A stretch of DNA of 64,000 bases from Paludibacter sp. 47-17. Lineage in GTDB: Bacteria; Bacteroidota; Bacteroidia; Bacteroidales; Paludibacteraceae. Below, in pieces: positions 2,418 to 25,820 of this stretch. Made by a program: the position numbers and the translations under genes. The stretch spans positions 372,001 through 436,000 of the forward strand of contig MKVT01000009.1 of the NCBI GenBank assembly GCA_001898935.1, written 5' to 3'. Numbering within the stretch: the first letter of the stretch is position 1; each line of letters opens with the position of its first letter. The notes beneath the pieces are model-generated. The model had not been told where the DNA came from. It made no database searches and saw nothing but the letters and a program-made list of their open reading frames with translations.

Positions 2418-2489
2418 CGCACACGACCTGAAAACTGTTTTGTTGAATCATAATAAATCGTACATTTGCAGTTGAATCCACTGTGTGCG
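2418..2489. promoter_or_regulatory. inverted repeat flanking the LacI-type regulator promoter (possible operator)
   Basis: CGCACAC at 2418-2424 and its exact reverse complement GTGTGCG at 2483-2489 flank the predicted promoter. The right arm lies in a partly symmetric element (GTGTGCGTACAC, 2483-2494). Two seven-base arms around a promoter, just upstream of a LacI-family gene, suggest autoregulation by looping or by binding two half-sites. This is inference from symmetry only; the arms are short. Confidence 0.35.
2439..2468 (+). promoter_or_regulatory. Bacteroidetes-type promoter for the uronate operon
   Basis: TTTG at 2439-2442, an 18-base spacer and TACATTTG at 2461-2468 match the Bacteroidetes -33/-7 consensus (TTTG and TAnnTTTG). 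The downstream regulator ATG at 2521 leaves a leader of about 45 bases. As the following genes are 6-24 bases apart or overlap, this promoter probably drives the whole operon to 11682. Confidence 0.6.
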
Positions 2490-2520
2490 TACACGGAGCT
2501 ATAAAATCATCAGGAGTAAG

Positions 2521-3600
2521 ATGCAACATACCACTCAAAAACCCCGGATAAAAGACATTGCCCGCATGGCAGGCGTGTCGGAAGGTACCGTCGATCGCGT
2601 TTTGCACAACCGCGGCGAAGTGTCGGTAAAAAGTAAAGAAGCAGTACTGAAGGTATTGAAAGAAATCAACTACACTCCCAACCTGCTGGCCCGTTCACTC
2701 GCATCCAAGAAGCACTACCGGTTCGTGTGCCTTATCCCTTCGTTCCAACCCGGCGATTACTGGGAATTCATCGAAAATGCATTGCTTCAGGCCGGGAATG
2801 ATTTTCTTCAGTACAATATCCACATCGATATTCATTACTTCAATCAGTTCGATGCGAATAACTTCCTGGGACTTACGGACAACCTGCTTCAGTTGAAGCC
2901 CGATGCCGTGATCCTGGCTCCTATTTTCAGAAACGAAACCTTGGCGTTCACCCTCGATCTTCGGCAGCACGAGATTCCCTTCTCCTTTATCGACTCTCTG
3001 ATCGAAGAAGCTGGTTTTACAACCTATTACGGTCAGAATTCATTTCAAAGCGGATTTGTCGCCGCCAAATTACTTCTCAACGATCTGCCCGACAGCAGCG
3101 AAGTTTTGGTACTCCGGACCAAACGGCAGGGAGCCGTTTCGAACCAGACGAAATACCGGTTCGAAGGTTTCATGCACTATTTCAACCAACAAACGCCTCA
3201 CAAAAAGATGGACCTGGTACATGTAGAGATCAGCGACACCGACGATGAGTTGAATCTCCGGATAGTGGAACAAACGTTCCGGGAACATCCGCAACTAAAT
3301 GCGGCCATCACTTTCAATTCGAAAGTATACCGGCTGGCTAATTACCTGAAACAGTTGCAACACGCCAACATCCGGTTAATCGGATACGACCTGCTCGATA
3401 AAAACGTCGAATACCTCAATCAGGATGTAATATCGTATCTGATTGCTCAAAGCCCCGGTAAACAGGCTTACTATACCGTACGCGATCTCTGCAATAAACT
3501 GATTTTAAAGCAGGAGGTAAACCAGATAAATTACGTTCCCATCGATATATTGATGAAAGAAAACATTAACGACTATATAAACTTCAGAGAGAAATATTAA
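2521..3600 (+). CDS. LacI-family transcriptional regulator of the uronate operon
   Basis: An N-terminal LacI helix-turn-helix (KDIARMAGVSEGTVDRVLHN) is followed by the hinge region (NYTPNLLARSLASKK) and a periplasmic-binding-protein-like effector domain over the rest of about 359 residues. I chose ATG 2521 because it gives the usual short stretch before the helix-turn-helix and is preceded by AGGAG at 2512-2516; an in-frame GTG at 2485 would add 12 residues with no counterpart in the family. It is the first gene of the operon, 19 bases before the tagaturonate epimerase, so it most likely senses a uronate or aldonate and controls these genes. The effector is unknown. Confidence 0.88.
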   Translation: MQHTTQKPRIKDIARMAGVSEGTVDRVLHNRGEVSVKSKEAVLKVLKEINYTPNLLARSLASKKHYRFVCLIPSFQPGDYWEFIENALLQAGNDFLQYNIHIDIHYFNQFDANNFLGLTDNLLQLKPDAVILAPIFRNETLAFTLDLRQHEIPFSFIDSLIEEAGFTTYYGQNSFQSGFVAAKLLLNDLPDSSEVLVLRTKRQGAVSNQTKYRFEGFMHYFNQQTPHKKMDLVHVEISDTDDELNLRIVEQTFREHPQLNAAITFNSKVYRLANYLKQLQHANIRLIGYDLLDKNVEYLNQDVISYLIAQSPGKQAYYTVRDLCNKLILKQEVNQINYVPIDILMKENINDYINFREKY

Positions 3601-3619
3601 TCTTAAAAATTGGAATATT

Positions 3620-4867
3620 ATGGAATTAGGAAAAATCAGTATCGGGATGGGCGATCGTTTTGCCCATCAGGGTGTAGCTCAGCTGCGAGCCATTGTAAAA
3701 GCCAACGGGGCAGGTCACGACATTAGTCCGGTTTGGAATAAATCCAACCGCGAACATATATACGTTCATTCGCATCCGGCCGATGTACGCAAAGAAGCCG
3801 ATCATGCCGTTGCAACCCTGGGATTTAAAGGTAAATATTTTGTCGATGCCGATCATATCAACCTTTCCACCGTTGCTCCCTTTGTCGAAACAGCCGATTT
3901 CTTCACGCTCGATGTGGCTGCCTTTATCGGGAAACCCAGTACCGAAGAAGAAGTGCGGAAATTTGTCGATTCGTGTGCCGCCTATATGGGCGACTTGCAA
4001 ATCCCCGGAATCCGGCAAGCTATAAAGGTAACCCGTGAATTGCTGATCGAGATTGCGTCAAAATTTCTGGCAGCCACTCAACAGGCTTCCGAAATATATC
4101 AATACCTGGTGGACAAAAAAGGAAAAGGCAATTTCATTACCGAAGTTTCGATGGACGAAGTGGAACATCCGCAAACCCCGGTTTACCTGTTCTTTATTTT
4201 GAAAATGCTCGCCGACAAAGGAGTACCGGCACAAACCATAGCTCCCAAGTTTACCGGCCGTTTCAACAAGGGTGTCGACTACCGCGGCGATCTCGATCAA
4301 TTCGCCCGCGAATTTGAAGAAGATATCCTGGTTATCGATTATGCAGTGAAACAATTCGGATTACCGCAGGAACTGAAACTAAGTGTTCACTCGGGTAGCG
4401 ATAAATTTTCGATTTATCCGATCATGGCTTCGATTATTAAAAAGCACGACAAAGGCCTGCACCTGAAAACAGCCGGTACAACCTGGCTGGAAGAGGTGAT
4501 CGGGTTGGCTCTTGCCGGTGGCGATGGTCTCGAAATGGCAAAAGAAATTTACGCCGGGTCGTACAACCGTCGCGAAGAGTTATGCGCTCCTTATGCCGAT
4601 GTGATCGACATCGATCCGGCCCGGTTACCCTCGGTAGAAGAAGTAAACAGCTGGGACGGCGAAAAACTGGCTAACACCCTGCGGCATATCCCGGGTCATC
4701 CCGACTACAATGCCGATTTTCGTCAGCTGGTGCACGTAGCCTACAAAGTTGCAGCCGAAAAAGGAGATGCTTACTATGCAATGTTGAAAAAATACAGCGA
4801 CGTGATTGGCGCCTGTGTGGAGGAAAACATCTACGAACGTCACCTGAAACGATTATTGAATTTATAA
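3620..4867 (+). CDS. uxaE: tagaturonate/fructuronate epimerase family protein (UxaE-like)
   Basis: The 415-residue protein resembles the UxaE family, which interconverts D-tagaturonate and D-fructuronate and so joins galacturonate catabolism to the mannonate branch. Recognisable parts are the N-terminal MELGKISIGMGDRFAHQG, the EHIYVHSHPADVR segment and the conserved LKLSVHSGSDKFSIYP near residue 255, with His and Asp residues suited to a metal site. It is the first enzyme gene after the LacI regulator and lies 9 bases before the SDR gene, whose substrate would be its product. Family assignment is from recalled motifs. Direction in vivo depends on whether galacturonate or glucuronate is supplied. 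Confidence 0.8.
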   Translation: MELGKISIGMGDRFAHQGVAQLRAIVKANGAGHDISPVWNKSNREHIYVHSHPADVRKEADHAVATLGFKGKYFVDADHINLSTVAPFVETADFFTLDVAAFIGKPSTEEEVRKFVDSCAAYMGDLQIPGIRQAIKVTRELLIEIASKFLAATQQASEIYQYLVDKKGKGNFITEVSMDEVEHPQTPVYLFFILKMLADKGVPAQTIAPKFTGRFNKGVDYRGDLDQFAREFEEDILVIDYAVKQFGLPQELKLSVHSGSDKFSIYPIMASIIKKHDKGLHLKTAGTTWLEEVIGLALAGGDGLEMAKEIYAGSYNRREELCAPYADVIDIDPARLPSVEEVNSWDGEKLANTLRHIPGHPDYNADFRQLVHVAYKVAAEKGDAYYAMLKKYSDVIGACVEENIYERHLKRLLNL

Positions 4868-4876
4868 AACCGGAGT

Positions 4877-5689
4877 ATGAGAAACTTATTTGATATAAAA
4901 GGCCGTGTGATGGTGATGACCGGAGGCACGGGAGTACTGGGAAGCTGCATGGTGGAATATCTTGCCGAGCAGGGAGCCAAGGTGGTAGTGCTGGCGCGTA
5001 ACCAGGCAAAAGGAGAAGAATTGGTAAACGGGATTCTTGCCAAAGGGCACGAAGCGATGTTTCTGCAAACGGATGTCAACGACAAAGCGATACTCGAAAA
5101 AAACGCTGAAGAAATCGTTGCAAAATACGGTCGAATCGACGTTTTGATCAATGGAGCGGGGGGGAATATGCCGGGAGCGACCATTGGTCCCGACAAGACC
5201 TTATTCGATCTGAACATCGACGATTTCAGGAAAGTAGTGGACCTGAATCTTTTCGGTACCATCATTCCCACCATGGTATTTGCGAAAGTAATGACGCAGC
5301 AGAAAGCGGGTAATATTATCAATATTTCCTCCGAATCGGCGTTGCGGCCGCTTACCCGCGTTGCCGGCTACGGAGCGGCCAAAGCAGCAGTTACCAACTT
5401 CACCAAGTACCTGGCGATTGAACTGGCCTCCAAATTCGGAGAGGACTTCCGGGTGAACGCCTTTGCACCGGGATTTTTCATTTCGGAACAAAACCGTGCG
5501 CTGCTCACCAATCCCGATGGATCGCTCACAGCACGCGGCCAATCCATCATTGCGCACACTCCTTTCAAACGCTTTGGCGAACCCGAAGAATTGCTCGGAA
5601 CCTTACACTGGCTCGCCAGCGATGCCTCGAAATTCGTGACCGGTACACTGACGGTTATCGACGGTGGATTTGATGTATTCAGTATTTAA
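4877..5689 (+). CDS. SDR-family D-mannonate oxidoreductase (fructuronate reductase)
   Basis: A 270-residue classical short-chain dehydrogenase. The cofactor glycine motif TGGTGVLG lies near residue 15, the NGAGG motif near 90, the catalytic serine in NISSESAL near 150, and the catalytic YxxxK in YGAAKAAV near 165. It resembles the short-chain form of D-mannonate oxidoreductase found in Bacillus and in Bacteroidetes, which is unrelated to the long-chain enterobacterial UxuB. The expected reaction is D-fructuronate + NAD(P)H to D-mannonate. Its place directly after the epimerase supports this. Many SDRs look alike, so the substrate rests on context plus overall resemblance. Confidence 0.78.
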   Translation: MRNLFDIKGRVMVMTGGTGVLGSCMVEYLAEQGAKVVVLARNQAKGEELVNGILAKGHEAMFLQTDVNDKAILEKNAEEIVAKYGRIDVLINGAGGNMPGATIGPDKTLFDLNIDDFRKVVDLNLFGTIIPTMVFAKVMTQQKAGNIINISSESALRPLTRVAGYGAAKAAVTNFTKYLAIELASKFGEDFRVNAFAPGFFISEQNRALLTNPDGSLTARGQSIIAHTPFKRFGEPEELLGTLHWLASDASKFVTGTLTVIDGGFDVFSI

Positions 5690-5703
5690 ATTATAATAGC
5701 AAA

Positions 5704-6783
5704 ATGAGTATTAGTTTAAAAGCAAACGCTAAGTATTCGTTGCTGGTTGCCAGCAGCATGGGCGTACGTATTACTCCGCTCAACGGACAGCCGGTACATA
5801 CCAGCAAAACTTTCGAAATGCAGGCTACCAGTGCCGAAACCAATGTGGCCAACATCGCCTCGTCGCTGGGAATGCCGGTAAAAGTACTGACCACCTTTGT
5901 GAAAGACAGCCCGATTGCCCAGTTTATCAAAAACGAACTCCGCAGCCGGAACATGACCTACGAAGGAGTGGAGGTTGCCCAGGGCGACCCCTGGGGCTAC
6001 CGCCACCAGTTCAATATCGCCGACAGCGGATTCGGCACCCGCGGCCCACGCGTGCAGAACGACCGTGCGGGAGAGGTGGGGCGTACGCTGAATGTAAAAG
6101 ATTTTGATCTGGATCGGATATTTGTTGACGAAGGAGTGCAGATTCTGCATTTATCGGGATTAATTGCTGCTTTATCGCAGGATACCAGCCAATTCTGCCT
6201 GGAATTGGCCCGTTTCGCCCGCAAAACCGGCACTCGCATATCGTTCGACCTCAACTACCGGGCATCGTTCTGGAAGGGACGCGAAGATGAACTTCGCGCC
6301 GTTTTCACCGAGATTGCCTCGGTTGCCGATATCCTGATCGGTAACGAAGAAGATTTCCAGCTCTGCCTGGGGATCGAAGGACCCGAGGCCGGTGGAAAGG
6401 GAATCGAAGCCGAAATCGAAGGGTTTAAAGGAATGATAGGCCGTGTGAAGGCATCGTTCCCCAATGCATCGGTATTTGCTACGACCCTTCGTCAGGTTAT
6501 CAGTACCAACGAACATCTCTGGGGCGCCATTTTACTCGATGGCAACGACTGGACGGTGATACTGCCCCGTAAGATCAACGTACTCGATCGTATTGGCGGA
6601 GGCGATGGCTACGTGGGAGGTATGCTCTATGGCATTCTGAAAGGTTGGGAGTCGGAAAAATGGGCCCAGTTCGGCTGGGCTACCGGAGCACTGGCCACCA
6701 CCATGCTTACCGATTATGCCTCACCGGCCGATGAAGAACAAGTTTGGAGTATCTGGGGCGGTAATGCCCGCGTTAAACGCTGA
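5704..6783 (+). CDS. PfkB-family sugar (acid) kinase, KdgK-like
   Basis: A 359-residue ribokinase/PfkB-type kinase. The C-terminal PfkB signature reads DRIGGGDGYVGGMLYGIL (about residues 298-315), with the Asp of GGGD as catalytic base; the substrate-side motif is TSAETNVANIASSLG near residue 40, where 2-keto-3-deoxygluconate kinases usually have GGAEANVA. Standard annotation would be 2-dehydro-3-deoxygluconokinase (KdgK). However, no mannonate dehydratase or KDPG aldolase is nearby, whereas a LarA-type epimerase follows directly and gnd closes the operon. A gluconate kinase activity is therefore a real alternative. The kinase fold is certain, the substrate is not. Confidence 0.82.
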   Translation: MSISLKANAKYSLLVASSMGVRITPLNGQPVHTSKTFEMQATSAETNVANIASSLGMPVKVLTTFVKDSPIAQFIKNELRSRNMTYEGVEVAQGDPWGYRHQFNIADSGFGTRGPRVQNDRAGEVGRTLNVKDFDLDRIFVDEGVQILHLSGLIAALSQDTSQFCLELARFARKTGTRISFDLNYRASFWKGREDELRAVFTEIASVADILIGNEEDFQLCLGIEGPEAGGKGIEAEIEGFKGMIGRVKASFPNASVFATTLRQVISTNEHLWGAILLDGNDWTVILPRKINVLDRIGGGDGYVGGMLYGILKGWESEKWAQFGWATGALATTMLTDYASPADEEQVWSIWGGNARVKR

Positions 6784-6789
6784 CAAAAG

Positions 6790-8079
6790 ATGATGTATTA
6801 TGAAAAGGGAGGTGCCGGGCTGGAGCTTGGCGCTTCCGATTTAAAAGAGGGCTTGTATGCCGCGCTCGAAAAGCTGGGAACCAAACAAAAAGTACTGGCT
6901 ATTCCACCCGATTACACCCGGCTTCCCAGCCGTTCGGGCGAACTTACCGAAATGGCCTGGCACTACTACGGCGATGCGCTCACCGATGTGCTTCCCGCAC
7001 TGGGGACCCACAGCCCGATGACCGCTCACCAGATCGGGCATATGTTCGGATCGCTTCCGGCTTCGCTGATCCGCGATCACGACTGGCGCAACGACGTGGT
7101 AACACTCGGAACGGTGCCTGCCTCCTATGTAAAGGAAGTTTCGGAAGGCGCCGTCGAATTTCCCTGGCCGGCCCAGGTGAACAAACTTTTGCGGGACGGA
7201 AATTTTGACTTAATTTTGTCGATCGGGCAAGTGGTGCCTCACGAAGTGGTGGGAATGGCCAACTACAACAAAAACATATTCGTCGGTACAGGTGGTTCCG
7301 AAGGCATCAATAAAAGTCACTTTATTGGCGCTGCCTACGGGATGGAGCGCATGATGGGTCACGCCGATACGCCGGTACGCCGCGTTTTTAACTACGCCTC
7401 GGAACATTTTGCCAAGCATTTACCGATTGTGTACGTTCAAACGGTGGTAGGGCTCGACAAAACCGACGGAATTGTAAAAACCCGCGGACTGTTTATCGGC
7501 GACGATTTCGAAGTATTCGACAAAGCAGCCAAGCTGGCGCTGCAGGTTAATTTCGAGATGCTCGACCGGCCGCTGAAAAAAGTAGTGGTGTATCTCGATC
7601 CTACGGAATTCAAAAGCACCTGGCTGGGTAATAAATCGATTTACCGTACCCGTATGGCCATCGACGATAACGGAGAACTGATTGTATTGGCACCGGCATT
7701 GAAGGAATTCGGCGAAGACAAGGAAATCGACCGCCTGATACGGAAATATGGTTATTTCGGCACGCCGGCCACCCTGAAGGCCTGCGACGAGAACGAAGAA
7801 TTGCGACGAAACCTGGGAGCTGCGGCACATTTGATACACGGATCTACGGAAGGGCGTTTCAGTGTCACCTATTGCCCCGGCAAGCAGGCCGGCAATCTCA
7901 GCCGGGAAGAGATAATAAGCGTAGGTTTCAACTATGCCGACATCGATGAAGTGACCGCGCGGTATAAGCCCGATCAACTGAAAGACGGTTTTAATATTCT
8001 TCCCGACGGTGAAGAAATATTTTACATATCCAATCCGGCCTTAGGACTGTGGGCCTATAAAGAACGGTTTAAATATTAA
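6790..8079 (+). CDS. LarA-family nickel-pincer hydroxyacid racemase/epimerase
   Basis: The 429-residue protein carries the residue set of lactate racemase LarA: PDYTR (D41, R44), THSP (H74), PHEVVG (H151), NYNK (K161, equivalent to the lysine that holds the pincer cofactor) and NKSH (H177). The spacings D41-R44, H151-K161 and K161-H177 (3, 10, 16) equal those of Lactobacillus plantarum LarA (D72-R75, H174-K184, K184-H200). The later substrate-side region (about 278-290) does not show the Gln and Lys of true lactate racemases clearly, so another 2-hydroxyacid is likely. Members of this superfamily are known to epimerise D-gluconate at C2. Next to a mannonate oxidoreductase and gnd, mannonate-gluconate epimerase is my best guess. 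The cofactor genes larB, larC and larE are not in the window. Confidence 0.85.
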   Translation: MMYYEKGGAGLELGASDLKEGLYAALEKLGTKQKVLAIPPDYTRLPSRSGELTEMAWHYYGDALTDVLPALGTHSPMTAHQIGHMFGSLPASLIRDHDWRNDVVTLGTVPASYVKEVSEGAVEFPWPAQVNKLLRDGNFDLILSIGQVVPHEVVGMANYNKNIFVGTGGSEGINKSHFIGAAYGMERMMGHADTPVRRVFNYASEHFAKHLPIVYVQTVVGLDKTDGIVKTRGLFIGDDFEVFDKAAKLALQVNFEMLDRPLKKVVVYLDPTEFKSTWLGNKSIYRTRMAIDDNGELIVLAPALKEFGEDKEIDRLIRKYGYFGTPATLKACDENEELRRNLGAAAHLIHGSTEGRFSVTYCPGKQAGNLSREEIISVGFNYADIDEVTARYKPDQLKDGFNILPDGEEIFYISNPALGLWAYKERFKY

Positions 8080-8086
8080 TTGAGCA

Positions 8087-9097
8087 ATGGTGAAGGAGGT
8101 TTGTTGGGGGATGATTGGTTGCGGTAACGTAACCGAGTTGAAAAGCGCACCGGCATTGAATAAAGTGCCGGGATCGCGCCTGGTGGCTGTAATGCGGCGG
8201 GATCGTGACAAAGCCCGCGATTATGCACAGCGGCACGGCGTGGAACGATACTATGACGATGCCGCTGCACTCATAAACGACGGGGAGGTAAATGCCGTAT
8301 ACATTGCTACGCCACCCGATACGCATGCTCGTTACGCCATACAGGCCATGCGGGCAGGCAAGCCGGTGTATGTCGAAAAGCCAATGGCCCGTACCTATGC
8401 CGAATGCCTCGAAATGATCCGGGTATCCGAAGAAACAGGAATGCCCTTGTATGTAGCCTATTACCGCCGCACCCTCCCGGCTTTCAATAAAGTAAAGGAG
8501 CTGCTCGCAAACGGTAGCATCGGAACTCCGCTCACGGTGCACCTCACATTGCATCTTCCCAAAGGAGTGCGCGATCAGTATAAAGAACAGCAAAGCTGGC
8601 ACGTTAACCCCGAAATTGCCGGAGCCGGCCATTTTTATGATCTGGCTTCGCACCAGTTCGATTACCTCGATTACCTGGCCGGTCCCGTTACGTTTGCTGC
8701 CGGTTTTGCCTCCAATATTGCCGGATATTATGCGGCCGAGGATACGGTTACTGCCAGTTTCGGATTAGCCAACGGAATGGCGGGCAGCGGAAGCTGGTGT
8801 TTCGTAACCGATCCGGGGAATTTTCGGGATACTATCGAGATTACCGGAACCCGGGGAAAAATCACACTCCCCACTTTTGCTAAAGGCGATTTGCAACTTA
8901 CCACCGGAAACGGAACCATTGAACTTTGTTTTCAGAATCCCGAAAATATTCAATTTCATCTTATTACACAGGTGGTGAATGCCCTTTTGGGCCGGGGCGA
9001 ATGTGTGAGCACCGGTGTTTCGGCTGCACGAACCAACAAGGTACTCGAAACCATAGTAACCAATTATTACTCCCATGAAAATAATAATCGACGATAA
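8087..9097 (+). CDS. Gfo/Idh/MocA family oxidoreductase
   Basis: A 336-residue NAD(P)-dependent oxidoreductase. The Rossmann start is WGMIGCGNVTELKSAPALN, the family signature VYVEKPMAR lies near residue 93, and the C-terminal half is the alpha/beta substrate domain with GAGHFYDLASHQFDYL supplying the usual Asp/His pair near 180. Family members oxidise or reduce sugars, sugar acids and polyols, and the substrate cannot be read from the sequence. Its position inside the uronate operon, 7 bases after the LarA-like gene, suggests a sugar acid. Its 3' end overlaps pdxB by 23 bases, which implies translational coupling. Confidence 0.85.
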   Translation: MVKEVCWGMIGCGNVTELKSAPALNKVPGSRLVAVMRRDRDKARDYAQRHGVERYYDDAAALINDGEVNAVYIATPPDTHARYAIQAMRAGKPVYVEKPMARTYAECLEMIRVSEETGMPLYVAYYRRTLPAFNKVKELLANGSIGTPLTVHLTLHLPKGVRDQYKEQQSWHVNPEIAGAGHFYDLASHQFDYLDYLAGPVTFAAGFASNIAGYYAAEDTVTASFGLANGMAGSGSWCFVTDPGNFRDTIEITGTRGKITLPTFAKGDLQLTTGNGTIELCFQNPENIQFHLITQVVNALLGRGECVSTGVSAARTNKVLETIVTNYYSHENNNRR

Positions 9098-10205
9098 AAT
9101 CCCTTACATCCGGGGTGCATTCGAACCGGTAGCCGAAGTGATTTACCTTCCGGGAGCCAACACCACCTCCGAAGTGGTGCGCGATGCCGATGCCATAGTG
9201 ACCCGTACCCGCACGATCTGTAACGAAAGCTTATTGGCCGGTTCGCGGGTAAAAATGATTGCTACGGCCACTATAGGGTACGACCATATCGACACCGCCT
9301 ATTGCAAAAAAGCGGGCATCGGCTGGACCAATGCACCGGGATGCAATTCGAAATCGGTAGAGCAATACATTGCTTCGGTACTGATGGTATGGGCTGAAGC
9401 GCGAAATGTACAGCTGAAGGAACTCTGTCTCGGCGTGATAGGCGTCGGGAATGTAGGATCGAAAGTGGCCCGTTTCGGCGAATTGCTGGGAATGACCGTA
9501 CTCAGGAACGACCCGCCCCGGAAACGGAACGAGGATCCTGCGCCATTTGCCGAGCTTTCCGAAATTCTTGAAAAAGCCGACATCATCAGCCTGCATGTGC
9601 CGCTCGAAACACGTGGCGACGATGCCACCTACCACCTGGTAAATAGCGATTTTATTCGTCAACTTGCAAAAAAACCGCTCCTTATCAATTCCTGCAGAGG
9701 AGAGGTAACCGATACGGCGGCTGTCAAACAAGCGCTGAACCAAGGCAAACTCGAGGCTTTTGTGGCCGACTGCTGGGAAAACGAACCCGATATCGACCGG
9801 GAATTGCTCGACGCCGCTTTTCTGGCGACTCCGCATATAGCCGGCTATTCACGGGACGGCAAAGCTACGGGTACGCTAATGAGTGTGCAGGCAATTGCCG
9901 GTTTTTTCGGCTTCAATCTAAACAATTGGACACCTTCGGGAGTTGAATTACCGGAATGCCCCACAATAGAGATTGATGGCGCAGGATTGAGCGCACAGGA
10001 TATTATAAGCAAGGCTATTCTTCATACCTATGATATTCGTACCGACGATGCGCGTTTCAGGGCTCAACCTTCCGGCTTTGAGAAACAAAGAGGCGATTAT
10101 CCGGTACGGAGGGAGTTTGCAGCCTATACCATTCGTGCTGTAAACATTCCCGGTGATATCCGGATGCTACTGACACAAATCGGATTCAACATTGTAAATG
10201 AATAA
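9075..10205 (+). CDS. pdxB: erythronate-4-phosphate dehydrogenase PdxB
   Basis: A 376-residue D-isomer-specific 2-hydroxyacid dehydrogenase. The NAD site is GVIGVGNVGSKVARFGELLG (about 120-139); the catalytic triad is the Arg in NSCRGEVTD, the Glu in CWENEPDID and the His in TPHIAGYS. The extra C-terminal region of about 90 residues (TYDIRTDDARFRAQPSGFE onwards) matches the PdxB dimerisation domain, which separates it from phosphoglycerate dehydrogenase and other relatives. It oxidises 4-phospho-D-erythronate in the DXP-dependent vitamin B6 pathway. Its place between sugar-acid catabolic genes, overlapping the oxidoreductase gene, is odd for a housekeeping biosynthetic gene. Confidence 0.9.
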   Translation: MKIIIDDKIPYIRGAFEPVAEVIYLPGANTTSEVVRDADAIVTRTRTICNESLLAGSRVKMIATATIGYDHIDTAYCKKAGIGWTNAPGCNSKSVEQYIASVLMVWAEARNVQLKELCLGVIGVGNVGSKVARFGELLGMTVLRNDPPRKRNEDPAPFAELSEILEKADIISLHVPLETRGDDATYHLVNSDFIRQLAKKPLLINSCRGEVTDTAAVKQALNQGKLEAFVADCWENEPDIDRELLDAAFLATPHIAGYSRDGKATGTLMSVQAIAGFFGFNLNNWTPSGVELPECPTIEIDGAGLSAQDIISKAILHTYDIRTDDARFRAQPSGFEKQRGDYPVRREFAAYTIRAVNIPGDIRMLLTQIGFNIVNE

Positions 10206-10227
10206 ACCAAATAAGCAATACTAACAA

Positions 10228-11682
10228 ATGAAACAAAAAGCAGACATTGGCCTTATCGGCTTGGCCGTAATGGGCGAAAACCTGGTGCTGAATATGGAAA
10301 GCAAGGGTTTTACCGTGGGTGTTTACAACCGCACGGTTGAAAAAGTTGATCAGTTCCTGGCCGGCAGAGGCAAGGGCAAAAACTTTATCGGAGCGCACTC
10401 CATCAAGGAATTATGCGATTCGCTCGAAAAACCCCGTAAGGTGATGATGCTGGTAAAAGCCGGCAAGCCGGTAGACGATTTTATCGAGCAGATTATTCCT
10501 CATCTCGAAGAAGGCGACATTATTATTGATGGCGGGAATTCGCATTTCCCCGATACGATTCGTCGCACGAAGTACGTTGAAAGCAAAGGATTGCTGTATA
10601 TCGGCACCGGCGTTTCGGGCGGAGAAGAAGGAGCTTTGCTGGGTCCTTCGATGATGCCGGGTGGTTCGCCTGCCGCATGGCCGGCAGTGAAGGATATTTT
10701 CCAGGCGGTGGCGGCCAAAGTGGAGGATAATGTACCTTGCTGCGACTGGGTAGGCGAAGATGGAGCCGGCCATTTTGTGAAAATGGTGCATAACGGCATT
10801 GAATACGGTGATATGCAGATTATTAACGAAGCTTATCAGTTGATGAAAGATCTGCTGGGCATGTCGGCCGACGAGATGCATGAAGTGTTTAAAGTGTGGA
10901 ACGAAGGCGATCTGGATTCGTACCTGACGGAAATTACACGTGATATTCTGGCCTTTAAAGATACGGATGGAGAACCGCTGGTGGAAAAAATCCTGGATAC
11001 GGCGGGACAGAAAGGTACCGGCAAATGGACCGGCGTTGTTGCTCTCGACCTGGGAATTCCGCTCACCCTGATCGGAGAATCGGTATTTGCCCGTTGTTTG
11101 TCGGCCCAGAAAGACCTGCGTGTGAAAGCTTCGAAAATGATCAGCGGCCCTGCAGTGCATTTCACCGGCGATAAGAAGCAAATGATCGACGACTTGAAGG
11201 ATGCTTTGTTCGGTGCCAAGATTATTTCGTATGCCCAAGGCTATAACCTGATGATGGAAGCAGCAAAAGAATACAACTGGAACCTGAATTACGGAGGCAT
11301 CGCGTTGATGTGGCGGGGTGGTTGCATTATCCGTTCGGTATTCTTAGGCGATATCAAGAAAGCGTTCGATAAAAATCCTGAACTTGAAAACCTGTTGCTG
11401 GATCCTTACTTCAAGGAAAAAGTCGAACAGGCGCAGGCAGGATGGCGCCGGGTGTGTGCCACAGCCCTCACCAACGGAATTCCGGTTCCGGCACTTACCG
11501 CTGCACTCACCTACTTCGACGGGCTTCGCAGCGAACGTTTGCCAGCCAACCTGTTACAGGCGCAGCGCGATTACTTCGGAGCGCATACCTACGAGCGTAT
11601 CGACCGGCCGCGCGGCGAATTCTTCCATACCAACTGGACCGGTCGCGGAGGCGACACAGCCTCGACTACATATGTAGTATAA
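10228..11682 (+). CDS. gnd: 6-phosphogluconate dehydrogenase, decarboxylating
   Basis: A 484-residue protein of normal length. The NADP site is GLAVMGENLVLNMESKGFTV near residue 10, followed by YNRT. The 6PGDH signature ILDTAGQKGTGKWT lies near 255 and the C-terminal FFHTNWTGRGGDTAS contributes to the partner active site. It converts 6-phosphogluconate to ribulose 5-phosphate, CO2 and NADPH in the cytoplasm. In Bacteroides gnd usually sits beside zwf and pgl; neither is here. It is instead the last gene of a sugar-acid operon, which suggests that 6-phosphogluconate arrives from gluconate rather than, or in addition to, glucose 6-phosphate. Confidence 0.96.
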   Translation: MKQKADIGLIGLAVMGENLVLNMESKGFTVGVYNRTVEKVDQFLAGRGKGKNFIGAHSIKELCDSLEKPRKVMMLVKAGKPVDDFIEQIIPHLEEGDIIIDGGNSHFPDTIRRTKYVESKGLLYIGTGVSGGEEGALLGPSMMPGGSPAAWPAVKDIFQAVAAKVEDNVPCCDWVGEDGAGHFVKMVHNGIEYGDMQIINEAYQLMKDLLGMSADEMHEVFKVWNEGDLDSYLTEITRDILAFKDTDGEPLVEKILDTAGQKGTGKWTGVVALDLGIPLTLIGESVFARCLSAQKDLRVKASKMISGPAVHFTGDKKQMIDDLKDALFGAKIISYAQGYNLMMEAAKEYNWNLNYGGIALMWRGGCIIRSVFLGDIKKAFDKNPELENLLLDPYFKEKVEQAQAGWRRVCATALTNGIPVPALTAALTYFDGLRSERLPANLLQAQRDYFGAHTYERIDRPRGEFFHTNWTGRGGDTASTTYVV

Positions 11683-11753: not shown

Positions 11754-14700
11754 TCATTCGTTTACTATCGTGCCGGCTTTCTTTCTGAATTCTTTGGGAG
11801 TATCATTGAACTTCTTTGCAAACTCGCGGTAAAAATAAGCCTTGTTGTTGAAACCGCACAGGTACATGATTTCCGAAACCGTCTTACTGGTCGTCTTTAA
11901 TAATTTTTCGGCCTGTTTCAACCGTATTGTACGGATATACTCCGTGGGTGTCTGCCCTACATTTTCCTTTAACTTCCGGTACAGCTGCATTTTACTCATC
12001 GCCAGTTCGCCGGCAATATATTCAATCGAAAGCGAATCATTTTCGATTTGTTCAAATATAAGCGAGGTAATCCGGAGGATCAGATTCCGGTCTTCCTTAC
12101 GAATTATTTTACCTTCCAACAAATCCACCGCTAAATAGGGCGACTCGCTGTAATCGAGCAGGGTTTTATTGCGCGACAAAGCACTTTCGACCATCGCTTC
12201 AAGATGTCGCGGATGAAACGGCTTGCCTAAATAACCATCAGCCCCCATCTCCAGGCCTTCAATCTGACTTTCGACCGAGCTTTTTGTGGATAACATAAGG
12301 ATAGGGATATGGCGTGTCAGTTCCTGTTGTTTCATTATTTTCACCAATTCGACCCCATCCATTACCGGCATAATATTATCGGTGATAATCAGCACCGGCA
12401 ACCGTAATTTCATCATCTCGATAGCTTCTTTCCCATTATATGCCATCGCTATCTCATACGTATGAATCAGAATATCGTGCAGTAAACGGCAAATTTCCGG
12501 ATCATCGTCGACTACTAATATTAACCCGTTTTTTACCGTATCGGGAATCATTATCTCGCGTTGCCGGGCCTCCGATTCGGGCGGATACCCTGTAGCATCC
12601 GTAGTTTTCAGACGTACCGGTTCGTTGGGTAACGGCGCAGCATCCGTGTCCGGGGCCAACTCCGGCAACCGGATCGTGAAGGAGGTATAGGTTTCGCCAT
12701 CACTTTCGAGTCTTATCGTTCCGCCCAGCAGCTCAACCAGGTTTTTACACAGCGCAAGTCCGATTCCATTGCTGGTTTCCAATCCTTTCATGACTTGTTT
12801 TTCGAAGCGTTCCAATACTTCAAAACGGTCGAAAATTCTCCGGTGATGATCTTCTTTAATCCCAACACCCCTGTTGGTTACTTGTATCTGCACAATATTG
12901 GGTTCGCTCAGGTACGAAGCGCTCACTTCGATTTTTTCATCGGAGGGTGTATACTTCACGGCATTGGAAACCAGGTTGAATAGGATCTTTTCAAGACTGT
13001 CGCGATCGCTGTTCCAATACAACAAATCGGGATGAATATTCAGAATCAGTTTAATATTCTTTTGTTCAAGCACTTCCTGAAAATTATCGAGTACGAACCG
13101 GATCAGTTCGGCGACATCCGTTTTTTCGATTCGTACCTGAAGATGCCCCGTCTCAGCTTTTCTAAACTCGATCAATTGCTGAATCAATCCCTGCATCCGT
13201 TCGGAATTCGATTTTATAATATTGATGTATTTCCGGGTCAGGCTATCGGGTATAGTGGTTCGGAGCAACTGTTCACAAGGGCCGTAAATCAGGGTAAGCG
13301 AATTGGAAAACTCGTGGGCTATATTGGTAAAAAAGCGCAGTTTAGCCTGATGCACTTCTTCATTTTTCTGCTTCTCGAGCTCTTTCAGCCGAATATCGTT
13401 GCGCACCCTGATCTGAAAACGCAGGAACCGGTACAAGCCAAAAGTAAAAAACAAAAACAGAACGATATACACCCCATATGCCCAGGTTGTATCCCACCAG
13501 GCCGGTCGAATTCGTACCGGCAACTCAAAATACTCCTCGCTCCATAACTTGTCGGCATTGCTCCATTTTACTTTCAGCACATAATCGCCCTTAGGCAAAT
13601 TTGAAAACACGATAGCCGACGAAGTGCCCAGCTGAATCCACTCTTTCTGGTATCCTTCGAGTATATATGCAATTTCACATTTCGTACCGGCAAGGTAATC
13701 GAGCGGAATAAAACGAAAGCTGAACGATTTGTTTTTATAGGAAAGCACCAGCACTTCTTCTTCCTTGTCCTGCCTGATAAAGGAAGAAAGATTCATTTCC
13801 GTATTATCAATAAAAAAGGCATCGAGAATAAGCGAAGGCATAAAATTACTATGCGTAATTTCGCCGGGATTAAACACATTGAAACCACTGATACCCCCGA
13901 AATACATCTCTCCCGTATCGCTTCTCTTATAAAACGAACCATCCGAAAATTCATTATTTTGAAGTCCGTCTTTTTTAAAATAAGAAACAATACGGTATTT
14001 TTCCTGCTGATGTATCAACTTGGCAATCCCCTGATTGGTACTCACCCAGATGTTTCGGTCCGAATCCTCGAGTATCCCGTGGATGGTATTGTTGGGCATT
14101 CCTTCTTTCTCGGTAAAACGCTGGAACTCGGGATTACCCCCGACGATTCGCACTAATTTATTCAGTCCTACGCTGGTTCCTGCCCACAAATCGCCCTTGG
14201 CATCCCTGTGAAGACACAATATATCGTTGCTGCTTATCGACGACGAATTCCCGGGATCCGTACGGTAGGTTGTAAAGTTACCCGATTGCATATCGAACCG
14301 GTTAAGTCCTCCCCCCCTTGTTGCTATCCAAAGATGCTTTTCGTCGTCGCGTAAAATGGAATACACTATATTATTACTCAACGAATGGGGCTGATGAGCC
14401 TTATAGATATACTGACGGTACGAACGTATCGAATAGGGAACCTTTGTGCGGTCGATATGCAAGCCGTAGAGTCCGTACCCGCTGGTACCCACCCACAATA
14501 CAGTATCGGACGAGAAGAAAAGCGCATAAACCGACGAAAGATTGATGCTCGGTTTCAAACTATCGGCAATCTGCAATTTGTTTAATTTACCTGTCCGGAG
14601 ATCCGTATAATTGATCCCATTCCCATCGGTTCCGATCCATTTTTCACCGCCCGGACCGGCTACGATTGTAAACACCGAATTATTAAGCAGACCGTTGGAA

Positions 14701-15851
14701 GTGCTGAAGCGATTTTCAACTACCGGAGCGTCGGCTTCTTTATCGAGAGCAAACACATAAATACCACTCCCTTTCGTACCGACCCACAACCTTCCGTCGG
14801 GACCGATATTGAACGTACGAACCGCACTATTACCGAAGTCCGTTACATTTTCGGCCGAAACAGTTCTGAATTTCTCGCGCGGGGGCGTAAGCATCCATAC
14901 CCCCTGCATATCGGTTCCTACCCAAATAATCTGTTGAGTGCCTTTGAAGAGCGAAAGAACGGATACATTATTCAGCAGCAGTTCCATTTGCCGCCTGTCC
15001 GACGAACATTCAAAAAGACCTTTTTCGGTACCCAGCAGAATACGTTCGTCCAGAAACAGCATCGACTGTACCGTTCCTGCAACGGCCGAGAAACCGGGAT
15101 ATGCGTTCAACACACCGGCCGAGATATTATAGGTGGCCAACCGGCTGTCCGAGGTTTGCATCCAGATGGCATTGCTTGAAGAATCGAAAAAAACAGCACG
15201 TATGTTTTCGGCATGCTGAAACTGTACCACATTTTGTACCGAACCACTCTCGACAAACCCTTTTTTAAATACAACTTTAAACAGGAGCTGCTCCTGCGTA
15301 TGAATCCACAAATTATCGTCGAGATCGAAAAAAATCTTTTTAAATCGAGAATTAACCTTTAGATTCAGTCGGGTAAAACCTTTTTCCTTTCCTTCGAATA
15401 CAAAGATGCCTTGTCCGTAAACAGCGGCGATAATCATATCGGAACTGTTTTTTGCAATCAAAAACGAATGTTCGTTATAGGCCGACTGACTTCGGCTATC
15501 GACAAAATAACGTTCGAAGCGATGGTTATCCCGGTCGAAGCGATTGATTCCATGATCGGTGGCGATCCATTGAATATTTTCATTTTCCTCAAGTACATCC
15601 CGTATAATATTATTGCTGATGCTATTGGGATTGGCAGGATCGGGTTTGTATACATTAAATTGCCGGCCGTTGTATACATTCAATCCATCCCAGGTGCCAA
15701 ACCACATCAATCCGCCCGAATTCTGGCTGATCGAATTGATGGAACTGTTGGAGAGCCCGTCGTTGTTGGTAAGCTGAACAAAACCGTATTTTTTGGCCAG
15801 GAGGATACCCGGCAACAGAAAAAAATATAATATTAAGCTGAACTTTTGCAT
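11754..15851 (-). CDS. hybrid two-component system regulator (HTCS) of the PUL
   Basis: A one-protein sensor and regulator of about 1365 residues. Order: signal peptide (MQKFSLILYFFLLPGILLA), about 680 residues of periplasmic beta-propeller repeats (repeated WFGT/WIGT and GLNRFD-type motifs), a Y_Y_Y domain (about 703-780), one membrane helix (about 788-810), HisKA with His near 846, HATPase (N box LVSNAVKYTP near 963), receiver with Asp near 1158 (TDNIMPVMDG), and an AraC-type DNA-binding domain at the C terminus. I start at 15851, not at the in-frame ATG at 15875, because the latter falls inside the -7 element and spoils the signal peptide. The H box reads HEFSNSLTLI instead of HE(F/L)RTPLTLI, and the G1 box has Asn for Asp (NRGVGI). 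It presumably senses an oligosaccharide and activates the divergent PUL operon. Confidence 0.95.
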   Translation of the reverse strand: MQKFSLILYFFLLPGILLAKKYGFVQLTNNDGLSNSSINSISQNSGGLMWFGTWDGLNVYNGRQFNVYKPDPANPNSISNNIIRDVLEENENIQWIATDHGINRFDRDNHRFERYFVDSRSQSAYNEHSFLIAKNSSDMIIAAVYGQGIFVFEGKEKGFTRLNLKVNSRFKKIFFDLDDNLWIHTQEQLLFKVVFKKGFVESGSVQNVVQFQHAENIRAVFFDSSSNAIWMQTSDSRLATYNISAGVLNAYPGFSAVAGTVQSMLFLDERILLGTEKGLFECSSDRRQMELLLNNVSVLSLFKGTQQIIWVGTDMQGVWMLTPPREKFRTVSAENVTDFGNSAVRTFNIGPDGRLWVGTKGSGIYVFALDKEADAPVVENRFSTSNGLLNNSVFTIVAGPGGEKWIGTDGNGINYTDLRTGKLNKLQIADSLKPSINLSSVYALFFSSDTVLWVGTSGYGLYGLHIDRTKVPYSIRSYRQYIYKAHQPHSLSNNIVYSILRDDEKHLWIATRGGGLNRFDMQSGNFTTYRTDPGNSSSISSNDILCLHRDAKGDLWAGTSVGLNKLVRIVGGNPEFQRFTEKEGMPNNTIHGILEDSDRNIWVSTNQGIAKLIHQQEKYRIVSYFKKDGLQNNEFSDGSFYKRSDTGEMYFGGISGFNVFNPGEITHSNFMPSLILDAFFIDNTEMNLSSFIRQDKEEEVLVLSYKNKSFSFRFIPLDYLAGTKCEIAYILEGYQKEWIQLGTSSAIVFSNLPKGDYVLKVKWSNADKLWSEEYFELPVRIRPAWWDTTWAYGVYIVLFLFFTFGLYRFLRFQIRVRNDIRLKELEKQKNEEVHQAKLRFFTNIAHEFSNSLTLIYGPCEQLLRTTIPDSLTRKYINIIKSNSERMQGLIQQLIEFRKAETGHLQVRIEKTDVAELIRFVLDNFQEVLEQKNIKLILNIHPDLLYWNSDRDSLEKILFNLVSNAVKYTPSDEKIEVSASYLSEPNIVQIQVTNRGVGIKEDHHRRIFDRFEVLERFEKQVMKGLETSNGIGLALCKNLVELLGGTIRLESDGETYTSFTIRLPELAPDTDAAPLPNEPVRLKTTDATGYPPESEARQREIMIPDTVKNGLILVVDDDPEICRLLHDILIHTYEIAMAYNGKEAIEMMKLRLPVLIITDNIMPVMDGVELVKIMKQQELTRHIPILMLSTKSSVESQIEGLEMGADGYLGKPFHPRHLEAMVESALSRNKTLLDYSESPYLAVDLLEGKIIRKEDRNLILRITSLIFEQIENDSLSIEYIAGELAMSKMQLYRKLKENVGQTPTEYIRTIRLKQAEKLLKTTSKTVSEIMYLCGFNNKAYFYREFAKKFNDTPKEFRKKAGTIVNE

Positions 15852-15872
15852 GGAACTTTGTTTTATCTCCCA

Positions 15873-15880
15873 CAAATATA
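15873..15880 (-). promoter_or_regulatory. -7 element of the HTCS gene
   Basis: On the minus strand the sequence is TATATTTG, a full TAnnTTTG match. It places transcription start near 15866 and supports ATG 15851 as the start codon. No clear -33 TTTG is seen. Confidence 0.5.
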
Positions 15881-16008
15881 CAATTTTTCGAAGGTATCAA
15901 CCCACACGGGAGTATCTTATTTCAACATTACGGTATACTGGGCCGAAAATGTATAAATCGTGTACTTATTTGTAAAATTAATATACCTTTCATTCCAACA
16001 GGTAGCTC

Positions 16009-16016
16009 TACATTTG
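16009..16016 (+). promoter_or_regulatory. -7 element of the PUL operon
   Basis: TACATTTG lies 30 bases before the GH130 ATG at 16047. There is no good -33 TTTG at the right distance, as expected for a promoter that depends on an activator such as the divergent HTCS. Confidence 0.5.
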
Positions 16017-16046
16017 CGACAGATAAAATCTTAAATCGATTAAAAA

Positions 16047-17090
16047 ATGGATATAGCAAAGCGATCAGCACACAACCCCTTATTACGTCCGTCGGACTTA
16101 CAGCCGGGAATTGAAGGAATGGAAATAACCTGCCTGCTCAATCCCGGAGTATTCAGGTATAATGGCAAAACATGGCTGTTGCTCCGTGTAGCCGAGCGAC
16201 CCAAACAGCTGGAAGGAAAAATAAGTTTTCCGGTTTACAACCAGGAAGGAAAAATAGAAATTCTCCATTTCGACAAAAACGATCCCGAACTGGATGCCGC
16301 CGATCCGCGGGTGATTAAGTACAAAGGCCAGAATTACCTGACCACACTTTCGTACCTGCGCCTGGTAAATAGCGACGACGACATTCATTTCCGGGAAGAT
16401 CCTTCGTATCCCCCGGTTTTCGGAGAAGGTTATCTCGAATCGTTTGGAATTGAAGACTGCCGTGTGGCTACCATGGACGACGGTTTTTATCTTACCTTTA
16501 CCGAAGTATCGCCCGTAGCTGTCGGAGTCGGATTAATGATCACCACCGATTTCAGGCATTTCGACCGTAAAGGGATGATTTTTCCTCCTCATAATAAAGA
16601 CTGTGCTATTTTCGAAGAAAAGATCAACGGGAAATATTATGCATTGCACCGCCCGAGCAGTCCCGAGCTGGGCGGGAATTACATTTGGCTGGCCGAATCG
16701 CCCGACCGGATCCACTGGGGAAACCACCAATGCATCGCCGTGACCCGTGAAGGTAGCTGGGATTCGGCCCGGGTGGGAGCCGGAGGAGCACCCATCAAAA
16801 CCGAAGAAGGTTGGCTTGAAATATACCATGGCGCCGATCAGCATCACCGCTATTGCCTGGGAGCATTATTACTCGATCTCAACGACCCGTCGAAAGTACT
16901 GGCCCGCAGCGGATCGCCCATCATGGAGCCCATCGCCGGGTACGAACAAACCGGCTTTTTCGGAAATGTGGTGTTCACCAACGGACATTATACCGAAGGC
17001 GATACCCTGAAAATATTTTATGGCGCCAGCGATGAAGTAATTTGCAGTGCTGAATTCTCCATTTCCGAAATATTAAACACACTACGATAA
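16047..17090 (+). CDS. GH130 family glycoside phosphorylase (beta-mannoside)
   Basis: A 347-residue five-bladed propeller enzyme of the GH130 family with NPLLRP near residue 10, ESFGIEDCRV with the presumed catalytic Asp at 137, NKDCAIFEEKINGKY with K184, LHRP (H201, R202) and IYHGA (H261). GH130 phosphorylases split beta-mannosides with inorganic phosphate to give mannose 1-phosphate; the basic residues that bind phosphate appear to be kept, which argues for a phosphorylase rather than one of the hydrolytic beta-1,2-mannosidases. No signal peptide is seen, so it is cytoplasmic. Cys138 replaces the Pro commonly seen after the catalytic Asp (EDPR). The gene lies two bases before an MFS transporter gene, which probably supplies its substrate. 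Confidence 0.88.
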   Translation: MDIAKRSAHNPLLRPSDLQPGIEGMEITCLLNPGVFRYNGKTWLLLRVAERPKQLEGKISFPVYNQEGKIEILHFDKNDPELDAADPRVIKYKGQNYLTTLSYLRLVNSDDDIHFREDPSYPPVFGEGYLESFGIEDCRVATMDDGFYLTFTEVSPVAVGVGLMITTDFRHFDRKGMIFPPHNKDCAIFEEKINGKYYALHRPSSPELGGNYIWLAESPDRIHWGNHQCIAVTREGSWDSARVGAGGAPIKTEEGWLEIYHGADQHHRYCLGALLLDLNDPSKVLARSGSPIMEPIAGYEQTGFFGNVVFTNGHYTEGDTLKIFYGASDEVICSAEFSISEILNTLR

Positions 17091-17092
17091 AC

Positions 17093-18349: not shown

Positions 18350-18363
18350 CATATTTCTCCGAC

Positions 18364-20088: not shown

Positions 20089-20105
20089 AGTTGAAAAATA
20101 GAATC

Positions 20106-23100: not shown

Positions 23101-23186
23101 GCGAAGGCGACCTAGCCAACGGTATCGACTGGGGAACTTATCCGGTGGCCATGACTTTTACATTCGGAATTAATTTAACCTTCTAA
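20106..23186 (+). CDS. SusC-like TonB-dependent outer-membrane transporter
   Basis: About 1026 residues. Signal peptide (ending SWLSYAQ), then a carboxypeptidase-regulatory-like domain (GIVQDATTGEPLIGVNILVEG), a TonB-box-like stretch before the plug (DEVVVVGYTVQKK), the plug with the SusC signature (IRGVNSISLSNDPLYIVDGI and NEIESMTVLKDASSAAIYGS) and a 22-strand barrel ending in Phe (FTFGINLTF). It imports oligosaccharides with the SusD partner immediately downstream. I use ATG 20106; an in-frame TTG at 20091 is less likely because it abuts the previous stop codon and lengthens the signal peptide. Confidence 0.97.
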   Translation: MRKTIVLTLLSCFSWLSYAQTPAEVKGIVQDATTGEPLIGVNILVEGTQAGSVTGLDGDFTISAPPKSTIRVSYIGYKVQMIQLKGESFLTIRLEPDTKLIDEVVVVGYTVQKKRDVLGAISKVESAEIGKIPVATSQQALQGRIAGVNVAAQTGAPGAPVSVRIRGVNSISLSNDPLYIVDGIPVEGALNNISPNEIESMTVLKDASSAAIYGSRATNGVVLITTKNGKSGDSKISYNMQLGFQEHGKLTKMATTEQYISMYNEAASADNATSVVKRALIEGSWVKDFPNVNHLEEIFRTAPFQSHELSVSGGNETTQFLISGIHFIQDGIINTTNFTRTNLRSNISSQLKKWLKTGLNISGGISNNRLVSSSGDGFAGEGGSVVRYALFRNPAIPVYSNTGEFIDLPSEYYGNSVYNSFFGDGYNPVGLTENTDRTKKIKTLMASGNVLISLPADLTLKTTAGIDYNNTLFREYNKTWGSANRINGTNGLSVSSVENLNWSINSTLNHSITLGEVHNLTTMAGAEAIKNSGYGMYGSESEFLNTDPGFLYLGLGSSKTRVTQSVWESTLVSFFANTSYNFNQKYYLSGILRHDGSSRFSKGNQWGTFYSVSGGWNVETEEFMKEIPAIYKLKLRAGYGSIGNQNIPLYSYTDRYGYNFYYTFGGQSYNGYAQTQLGNDKLKWETSNQFNVGADVELLKGELGLTLDYYYKITNDMLLPASLPPSIGNAAPFQINSDGNILNTGIDVEIFYRKNFRDGGFNISLNGGYLKNKVLKLDNPYFAGRVDTGVFATRTEQGYPIGSFFLYEMAGIFQNDLDVLTSAYQGNNIKPGDVKYVDQNEDNIIDARDRTFLGSAIPKITTGLTLSGNYKNFDLSMFFQGAFGQKIFSQVNYDIEGFYRGFNVTERYYREHWTGEGSSNTQPRASWAAKSNNVKASSRFLEDGSYLRLKNLQLGYSLPGTKKYGIDNLRVYLSGTNLLTFTGYSGLDPEMTVSTNSAGEGDLANGIDWGTYPVAMTFTFGINLTF

Positions 23187-23198
23187 GCATCGACGTAT

Positions 23199-24629: not shown

Positions 24630-24677
24630 AGAATCAGCTAATCAACAGTAAAAAAATCAATTAAATTTTTAGTTATC

Positions 24678-25745: not shown

Positions 25746-25772
25746 CTTTCAGGAAAACTTGAGTGTTTACGT

Positions 25773-25806: not shown

Positions 25807-25820
25807 AAAATTCGAAAACA

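Follow-up and report, generated by a model that had tools for sequence, protein, structure and literature searches.

A stretch of 64,000 nucleotides from Paludibacter sp. 47-17 (order Bacteroidales; contig MKVT01000009.1, positions 372,001 to 436,000), called the window in its full length, carries on its forward strand (2485-11682) an operon that probably forms a branch by which uronates enter the pentose phosphate pathway, by way of a LarA-type epimerase of group 18 (LarA18) that would depend on the nickel-pincer nucleotide (NPN) and would receive this cofactor from neighbouring organisms. We infer the reactions, the substrate and the cofactor source from gene content, conservation, co-occurrence, residues and selection. 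In the proposed scheme, UxaC (encoded elsewhere in the genome) and UxaE would bring galacturonate and glucuronate to fructuronate, which a short-chain dehydrogenase/reductase (SDR) would reduce to D-mannonate. LarA18, by inverting C2, and a PfkB-family kinase, by adding a phosphate, would jointly yield 6-phosphogluconate, and Gnd would convert this to ribulose 5-phosphate, CO2 and NADPH. LarA may act first, on mannonate to give gluconate, or follow the kinase and turn 6-phosphomannonate into 6-phosphogluconate; in either case LarA18 would use NPN, which in the window's genome would most likely be obtained from other organisms.

The genes follow each other in the order LacI, UxaE, SDR, PfkB kinase, LarA, Gfo/Idh, PdxB-like and Gnd, all on one strand, with spacings of 6 to 22 bp between open reading frames (ORFs) and a single 23-bp overlap. 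UxaE, a tagaturonate/fructuronate epimerase (3620..4867, + strand), matches PF16257 with 195.4 bits, and the SDR-type D-mannonate oxidoreductase, or fructuronate reductase (4877..5689, +), matches NF006132 with 370.9 bits (cut-off 281). They are followed by the PfkB-family kinase (5704..6783, +; PF00294, 75.2 bits), which belongs to a separate clade and is a predicted gluconate or mannonate 6-kinase, by LarA18 (6790..8079, +), a predicted nickel-pincer hexonate C2 epimerase, and further downstream by Gnd, the decarboxylating 6-phosphogluconate dehydrogenase (10228..11682, +; TIGR00873, 762.7 bits, cut-off 426.7). For these five genes, ORFs and family matches agree with the initial annotation, whose gene list is otherwise incomplete: it lacked the Gfo/Idh/MocA oxidoreductase (8087..9097, +; PF01408, 93.3 bits), an optional member, the PdxB-like 4-phosphoerythronate dehydrogenase (9075..10205, +) and the LacI-family protein (2485..3600, +; PF00356, 59 bits; PF13407, 110 bits). 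The last is the probable regulator of the operon, and its ORF has an alternative in-frame ATG 36 bases downstream of the start. The PdxB-like protein scores 445 bits with NF001309 (cut-off 434) and 54.6 bits with PF11890 (DUF3410; cut-off 31.4), but 280.5 bits with NF011966, where the cut-off is 687.

Conservation was assessed on the best 80 of at least 565 related loci, plus 27 loci from LarA18 carriers in a sample of 198 genomes of the window's order (the order sample). In this sample 29 genomes match the LarA18 model and 28 were counted as carriers, namely 27 over the cut-off and G154 (a fragment at a contig end), with G003 left out for its 19-bit match. After removal of a duplicate (L105), 106 loci were examined, of which 61 have at least 4.5 kb on both sides and 45 were dropped for short flanks; neighbours were counted within 9 kb of LarA and on its strand unless said otherwise. 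This comparison of operon order across relatives, which the initial annotation had suggested, bears out the grouping, as the SDR and Gnd each accompany LarA in 58/61 loci, PdxB in 52/61, PfkB in 51/61 and LacI in 48/61; Gfo/Idh (29/61), UxuA (11/61) and a PFK-family gene (3/61) are less frequent. When either strand is considered, UxaE lies near LarA in 33/61 loci (14/61 on LarA's strand), UxaC in 29/61 and a KdgK-like gene in 18/61. Gnd was undetected near LarA in three of the 61 well-covered loci (L058, L097 and L099), and in L093 UxaC, a KdgK-like kinase and Eda stand immediately upstream of the SDR, kinase, LarA and Gnd. 4-Phosphoerythronate, on which the PdxB-like protein is expected to act, is an inhibitor of 6-phosphogluconate dehydrogenase, and Bacillus subtilis without CpgA is poisoned by gluconate (PMC6449344). 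A PdxB-like protein near LarA and Gnd could thus be a metabolite repair enzyme protecting Gnd, or could simply serve vitamin B6 synthesis. In L098 (5930-6764), two short gnd-like fragments lie 3' of an intact gnd, and in L104 (7521-8819) the PfkB frame of 433 aa aligns as two segments, separated by about 55 residues that have no match.

The epimerase itself is assigned to group 18 by NF052594 ('nickel-dependent putative hexonate epimerase'; 650.5 bits, cut-off 500), and the sole solved structure that it matches is 4nar, GntE2 of Thermotoga maritima (E 2.6e-35). The pincer-site residues listed in the initial annotation (D41, R44, H74, H151, K161, H177) are all present and identical in 108/108 aligned group-18 sequences (the window and 107 loci, among which at least two pairs, L024/L105 and L039/L108, look like duplicates), and E152, V153, W278 and K282 are invariant wherever covered. 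Based on spacing and the alignment with 4nar, window residues were taken as equivalents of LarA D72, R75, H108, H174, K184, H200 and K298; H177 thereby corresponds to H200, which we take to be a nickel ligand. K161 corresponds to K184, the residue of cofactor attachment (PMC11796402). The GntE signature is likewise found, as the H151-E152-V153 loop (E-V/S after the second catalytic His) and W278 in helix 11. It is common to LarA groups 18, 19 and 20, of which the latter two convert D-mannonate to D-gluconate by epimerisation, and the study that gives the signature doubts that mannonate is the native substrate of group 19 (PMC7583248). For group 18 the substrate is only hypothesised to be a hexonate (PMC7583248; NF052594); the operon context probably narrows it to mannonate/gluconate or their 6-phosphates.

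A further line of evidence comes from the kinase. Its profile (A2, E ≤ 1e-60) matches 22/28 LarA18 carriers and 1/170 non-carriers (Fisher p 9e-23, relatedness not corrected), the latter being G148 (C187:8771-9841), the only one of the 198 order genomes with an operon-type PfkB and no LarA18 match. In six of the 22 (G007, G043, G108, G112, G125, G178) the kinase is located away from LarA. Together with Gnd in nearly all loci, this tracking of LarA18 by the kinase clade supports, as a capacity, the line from fructuronate through mannonate and 6-phosphogluconate to ribulose 5-phosphate drawn in the initial annotation. The carriers without the clade are G006, G022, G038, G074, G136 and G154, and all of these except G006 have a PFK-family gene and a HAD-like gene between the SDR and LarA (L095:7177-9401, L111:11544-13881, L116:9834-12075, L118:1049-3260 and L119:9165-11445). 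The PFK-family proteins score 352-372 bits with NF010675, a diphosphate-fructose-6-phosphate phosphotransferase model (cut-off 273), and the HAD-like proteins 22.8-28.8 bits with PF13419 (cut-off 23.8), L118 with 22.8 bits falling just below. No genome was found with both the kinase clade and the PFK-family gene, the latter having been sought in the vicinity of LarA alone. Their complementary occurrence points to a shared function, with the pair standing in for the operon PfkB, while an ordinary role with fructose 6-phosphate, as in the model's name, is possible.

Identity between the operon kinase and the KdgK-like kinase of the same genome is 28%. The motif TSAETNVA pointed out in the initial annotation was confirmed in the sequence, against GGGEANVA in the KdgK-like protein; SAETN is invariant in the 22 kinase sequences aligned, and the KdgK-like clade has EAN at this place. 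With the best equivalog model for 2-keto-3-deoxygluconate (KDG) kinases the operon kinase reaches 109.2 bits (cut-off 440), which alone is not decisive as the KdgK-like kinase of this genome also falls short (222.2 bits), and the best solved-structure match of the operon kinase is a KDG kinase. We think it unlikely that it acts as one, given the separate KdgK-like gene in the genome and in neighbouring loci. No PfkB or PFK-family gluconate or mannonate kinase in such a setting was found in the literature searched, which was covered in part.

As to the order of the two middle steps, the signature shared by groups 18, 19 and 20 leans towards free mannonate, and we regard LarA acting first as roughly twice as probable as the reverse. 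The reverse order, in which PfkB would be a mannonate 6-kinase and LarA18 a 6-phosphomannonate 2-epimerase, is less likely, though it has a precedent in extracts of Lactobacillus suebicus, where mannonate kinase and 6-phosphomannonate epimerase activities were demonstrated (PMC6978723). The kinase gene, or the PFK-family pair, usually lies between the SDR and LarA and so matches that step order, but gene order is weak evidence. K175, R288 and R356, which point weakly to the kinase acting first, are invariant in LarA18 and have no basic residue in the same GntE2 alignment column, a comparison with one sequence in which arginines occur within a few columns of R288 and R356. Against the kinase acting first stands the substrate signature, since groups 19 and 20 act on free mannonate (PMC7583248).

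The cofactor is where the genome departs from expectation. The initial annotation had named the absence of larB, larC and larE as a refutation of its scheme, and the genome search recovered none of them: in the window's genome, which is 99.98% complete, there is no match to LarC (TIGR00299; PF01969 also none), the best match to the LarE model has 33.2 bits (cut-off 150) and that to the LarB model 48.7 bits (cut-off 175). A complete NPN system, meaning LarA with LarB, LarC and LarE (LarBCE) in one genome, is therefore not found here. In the order sample LarC matches 23/198 genomes (G143 below the cut-off) and LarB is over its cut-off in 24/198, the two agreeing in 197/198 (the exception is G157); among LarA18 carriers, 17/28 have both and 11/28 neither. 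The survey was extended by 36 further genomes, the sources of 36 of the 80 named LarA18 contigs and chosen for long contigs or strain names rather than at random, of which 13 match LarC. Across the resulting 64 genome entries, LarE (E ≤ 1e-15) is matched in 30, exactly those with LarC. Once G204 and G002, which share the same gene places, are merged, 29 of the 63 distinct LarA18 genomes have LarC and LarE, and 34, the window's included, have neither; LarB, which was searched in the order sample and not in the 36 named-contig genomes, has no match over the cut-off in the 11 of these 34 thus covered.

Named strains without LarC and LarE are Mariniphaga anaerophila, Maribellus sediminis, Maribellus sp. 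YY47, Draconibacterium aestuarii, D. mangrovi and Tangfeifania diversioriginum, in same-genus contrast with Mariniphaga sediminis and Maribellus maritimus, which have both genes. A literature search on how the named strains behave with galacturonic acid yielded no usable record. Incomplete assembly is an unlikely explanation given the completeness of the window's genome and these six named strains; completeness figures are not given for G198-G233, and larB, larC and larE adjoin in several genomes, so that a single assembly gap might conceal the whole set in any one draft. When mapped on a LarA18 tree of 62 rows, the LarBCE label needs 12 parsimony changes, at least 8 of them on well-supported branches, and shuffled labels need about 21, so that the label is also clustered; this being a gene tree, operon transfer may inflate the count of changes. 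Ten rows, none with LarBCE, form the supported set to which the window's LarA belongs. Judged from these gene searches and this tree, LarBCE loss is all-or-none and recurrent. No report of LarA clades without LarBCE was found in the part of the literature searched.

Where LarBCE is present, it is associated with LarA18. LarC occurs in 17/28 carriers and in 6/170 non-carriers (relatedness not corrected), and group 18 is the sole LarA match (PF09861) in 13/17 LarBCE-positive order carriers and 9/12 distinct LarBCE-positive named-contig carriers, or 22/29 overall (the two matches of G227 were left unresolved). The enrichment, together with LarA18 being the sole LarA, suggests that genomes able to make NPN make it for LarA18. 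A second LarA was considered as the protein served by LarBCE and fails to explain the 22/29 carriers. G233 (L054) has a second LarA with a strong Lar_N match (186 bits) and no LarC or LarE match, and G014, G131, G043 and G064 each have two or three matches over the cut-off to the LarE model.

Selection on LarA was estimated with Nei-Gojobori counts in hand-picked pairs, nine LarBCE-negative (not independent of each other) and five LarBCE-positive. In the LarBCE-negative pairs the ratio of nonsynonymous to synonymous change was 0.022-0.031 as dN/dS in the five with finite dS (dS up to 2.4) and 0.037-0.099 as pN/pS across all nine; the LarBCE-positive pairs gave a dN/dS of 0.010-0.041 in the three with finite dS and a pN/pS of 0.035-0.117 across all five. 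The pair of the window's own LarA is saturated, with a pN/pS of 0.092. LarA is thus strongly constrained and under strong purifying selection, alike with and without LarBCE.

The initial annotation had also noted the lack of a mannonate dehydratase and of an aldolase for 2-keto-3-deoxy-6-phosphogluconate (KDPG), which is correct for the operon and incorrect for the genome, as the search for uxuA and eda that it had proposed recovered both at two separate loci. On C30 (L131:8355-10351), UxuA (TIGR00695, 415.9 bits, cut-off 199.55) is encoded beside a second mannonate-type SDR (NF006132, 363.2 bits, cut-off 281) that is 47.6% identical to the operon SDR. C34 (L132:6314-11113) brings together an MFS protein, UxaC (667.5 bits, cut-off 387), Eda (NF005499, 376.5 bits, cut-off 275) and the KdgK-like kinase, whose name reflects resemblance, since its 222.2 bits stay below the cut-off of 440. 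The canonical uronate route thus looks complete in gene content, the idea that this genome has no canonical route was rejected, and the operon, with its own kinase coexisting with the KdgK-like one beside UxaC and Eda, is by its predicted functions a branch added beside that route. The bypass of the dehydratase/KDPG branch put forward initially is not supported for this genome and is possible elsewhere. UxuA matches 12/28 carriers (G007 and G176 only partially or weakly) and Eda 22/28, and ManD is over its cut-off in 4 of 35 genomes searched, all four among the 28 carriers. Neither UxuA nor ManD is found at these thresholds in 12/28 carriers, and five of these (G037, G112, G119, G136 and G154, the last 78% complete) also lack an Eda match, so that the operon may be a true bypass there. 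Sub-threshold matches to the enolase superfamily occur in several of the twelve, and an unrecognised mannonate dehydratase or an altronate route may be present. In G022, G108, G119, G136 and G164 (82-99% complete), UxuA, ManD over the cut-off and LarBCE are all missing, which suggests that LarA may be the main mannonate exit in these genomes.

Several points weigh against the proposed branch and its cofactor supply. The canonical route is also present, so the contribution of the operon in this genome may be small, and in the 11 loci where UxuA lies on LarA's strand (ten between the SDR and the kinase; L104 downstream) mannonate has two exits. T. maritima, the organism on which the route is modelled, did not grow on gluconate, glucuronate or galacturonate as sole carbon source. 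We know of no NPN uptake, and none was found described in the part of the literature searched; within the same scope, no assayed group-18 member was found. An enzyme kept under full selection in LarBCE-less genomes may not need NPN, and five order genomes (G016, G132, G153, G157 and G197) carry LarB, with LarC except in G157, in spite of having no LarA match, so that other NPN users probably exist and LarBCE does not have to be there for LarA18. This agrees with PMC11796402, where larB, larE and larC occur without larA in about 15% of the genomes analysed.

For the LarBCE-less genomes we nevertheless favour, with modest confidence, an NPN-dependent epimerase supplied by neighbours, because the all-or-none loss fits the supply of finished cofactor, or the lack of any need for it, better than piecemeal replacement, and because NPN seems to be made for LarA18 where it is made. 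An enzyme with another cofactor at the same site, or with none, would leave LarBCE to serve other proteins in some carriers, and would fit both the unchanged six pincer residues in the 34/63 distinct genomes without LarC and LarE and the LarA-less genomes with LarB and LarC of the same order; we consider it rather improbable in view of K161 and H177, identical in every group-18 sequence, the strong enrichment of LarC with LarA18 and the position of LarA18 as sole LarA in most LarBCE-positive carriers. If NPN were made by an unknown, non-homologous pathway, the constraint on LarA would be accounted for with no need of uptake, but this reading is more doubtful still: it would take three separate replacements, a heavy demand, and sits poorly with an all-or-none loss in which LarC equals LarE in 64/64 entries and LarB equals LarC in 197/198. 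Ordinary KDG metabolism, with the kinase phosphorylating UxuA-made KDG, LarA and Gnd as bystanders and the PFK-family proteins as phosphofructokinases, draws on the loci with UxuA, on the structure match of the kinase and on the NF010675 scores, and is highly improbable given the distinct KdgK-like gene in the same locus (18/61) and beside UxaC and Eda in the window's genome, the conservation of Gnd, the tracking of LarA18 by the kinase clade and a PFK-family gene seen only in carriers without that clade. Beyond the branch with cofactor from neighbours, we tentatively put forward a broader picture, which we would place somewhat short of an even chance: NPN would be a shared, vitamin-like cofactor, of which about half of the examined carriers have repeatedly lost the whole pathway and import it or its end precursor, and the operon PfkB would represent a new kinase specificity for sugar acids, for which several lineages would have substituted the PFK-family protein and its HAD-like partner.

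Next to the operon lies a polysaccharide locus (11754-28943) with GH130, MFS, SusC-like and SusD-like proteins, two proteins with LamG-type domains and, on the minus strand, a hybrid two-component regulator.

If the proposed branch exists, pectin-derived uronates would feed pentose phosphate and NADPH production in Bacteroidota, an unassigned branch of the LarA superfamily would be given a substrate, and candidate genes would be named for the conversion of mannonate to 6-phosphogluconate. A widespread, intact and strongly selected LarA clade without recognisable NPN synthesis would imply that NPN is exchanged, that it is made in an unknown way or that the enzyme works without it.

The canonical UxuA-KdgK-Eda route, whose genes are also in the window's genome, shares the steps from uronate to mannonate with the operon and then leads through dehydration and KDPG cleavage to pyruvate and glyceraldehyde 3-phosphate, not to pentose phosphate and NADPH. 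The proposed route is known in outline from T. maritima and is not new; Rodionova 2012, known to us through citing papers, reportedly proposed it for that organism. The UxaR locus of T. maritima (gnd-uxaRED-gntEK) follows the same logic with a set close to that of the operon, namely Gnd, a regulator, UxaE, UxaD, a LarA homologue and a kinase, and there too canonical genes coexist, as a kdgA-kdgK-uxuB-uxuA operon (PMC3750489). GntE2 epimerises free D-mannonate to gluconate in vitro (PMC7583248). The two systems differ in the regulator (GntR family in T. maritima, LacI here), the kinase (GntK, PfkB) and the LarA group (20, 18), PdxB and Gfo/Idh are added here, and T. maritima matches the LarC search, in contrast to the window's genome without LarB, LarC or LarE matches. 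The hybrid isomerase/phosphoketolase pathway of L. suebicus also converts mannonate to 6-phosphogluconate through a kinase and a C2 epimerase, followed by 6-phosphogluconate dehydrogenase, but takes the kinase step first, leads onward to phosphoketolase and is known from activities in extracts, not from genes (PMC6978723). With its 650.5 bits and the residues of the group, the window's LarA agrees with group 18 as described (PMC7583248; NF052594). New with respect to these systems are a Bacteroidota version with a group-18 LarA, a kinase clade distinct from KdgK, and the retention of LarA18 without LarBCE.

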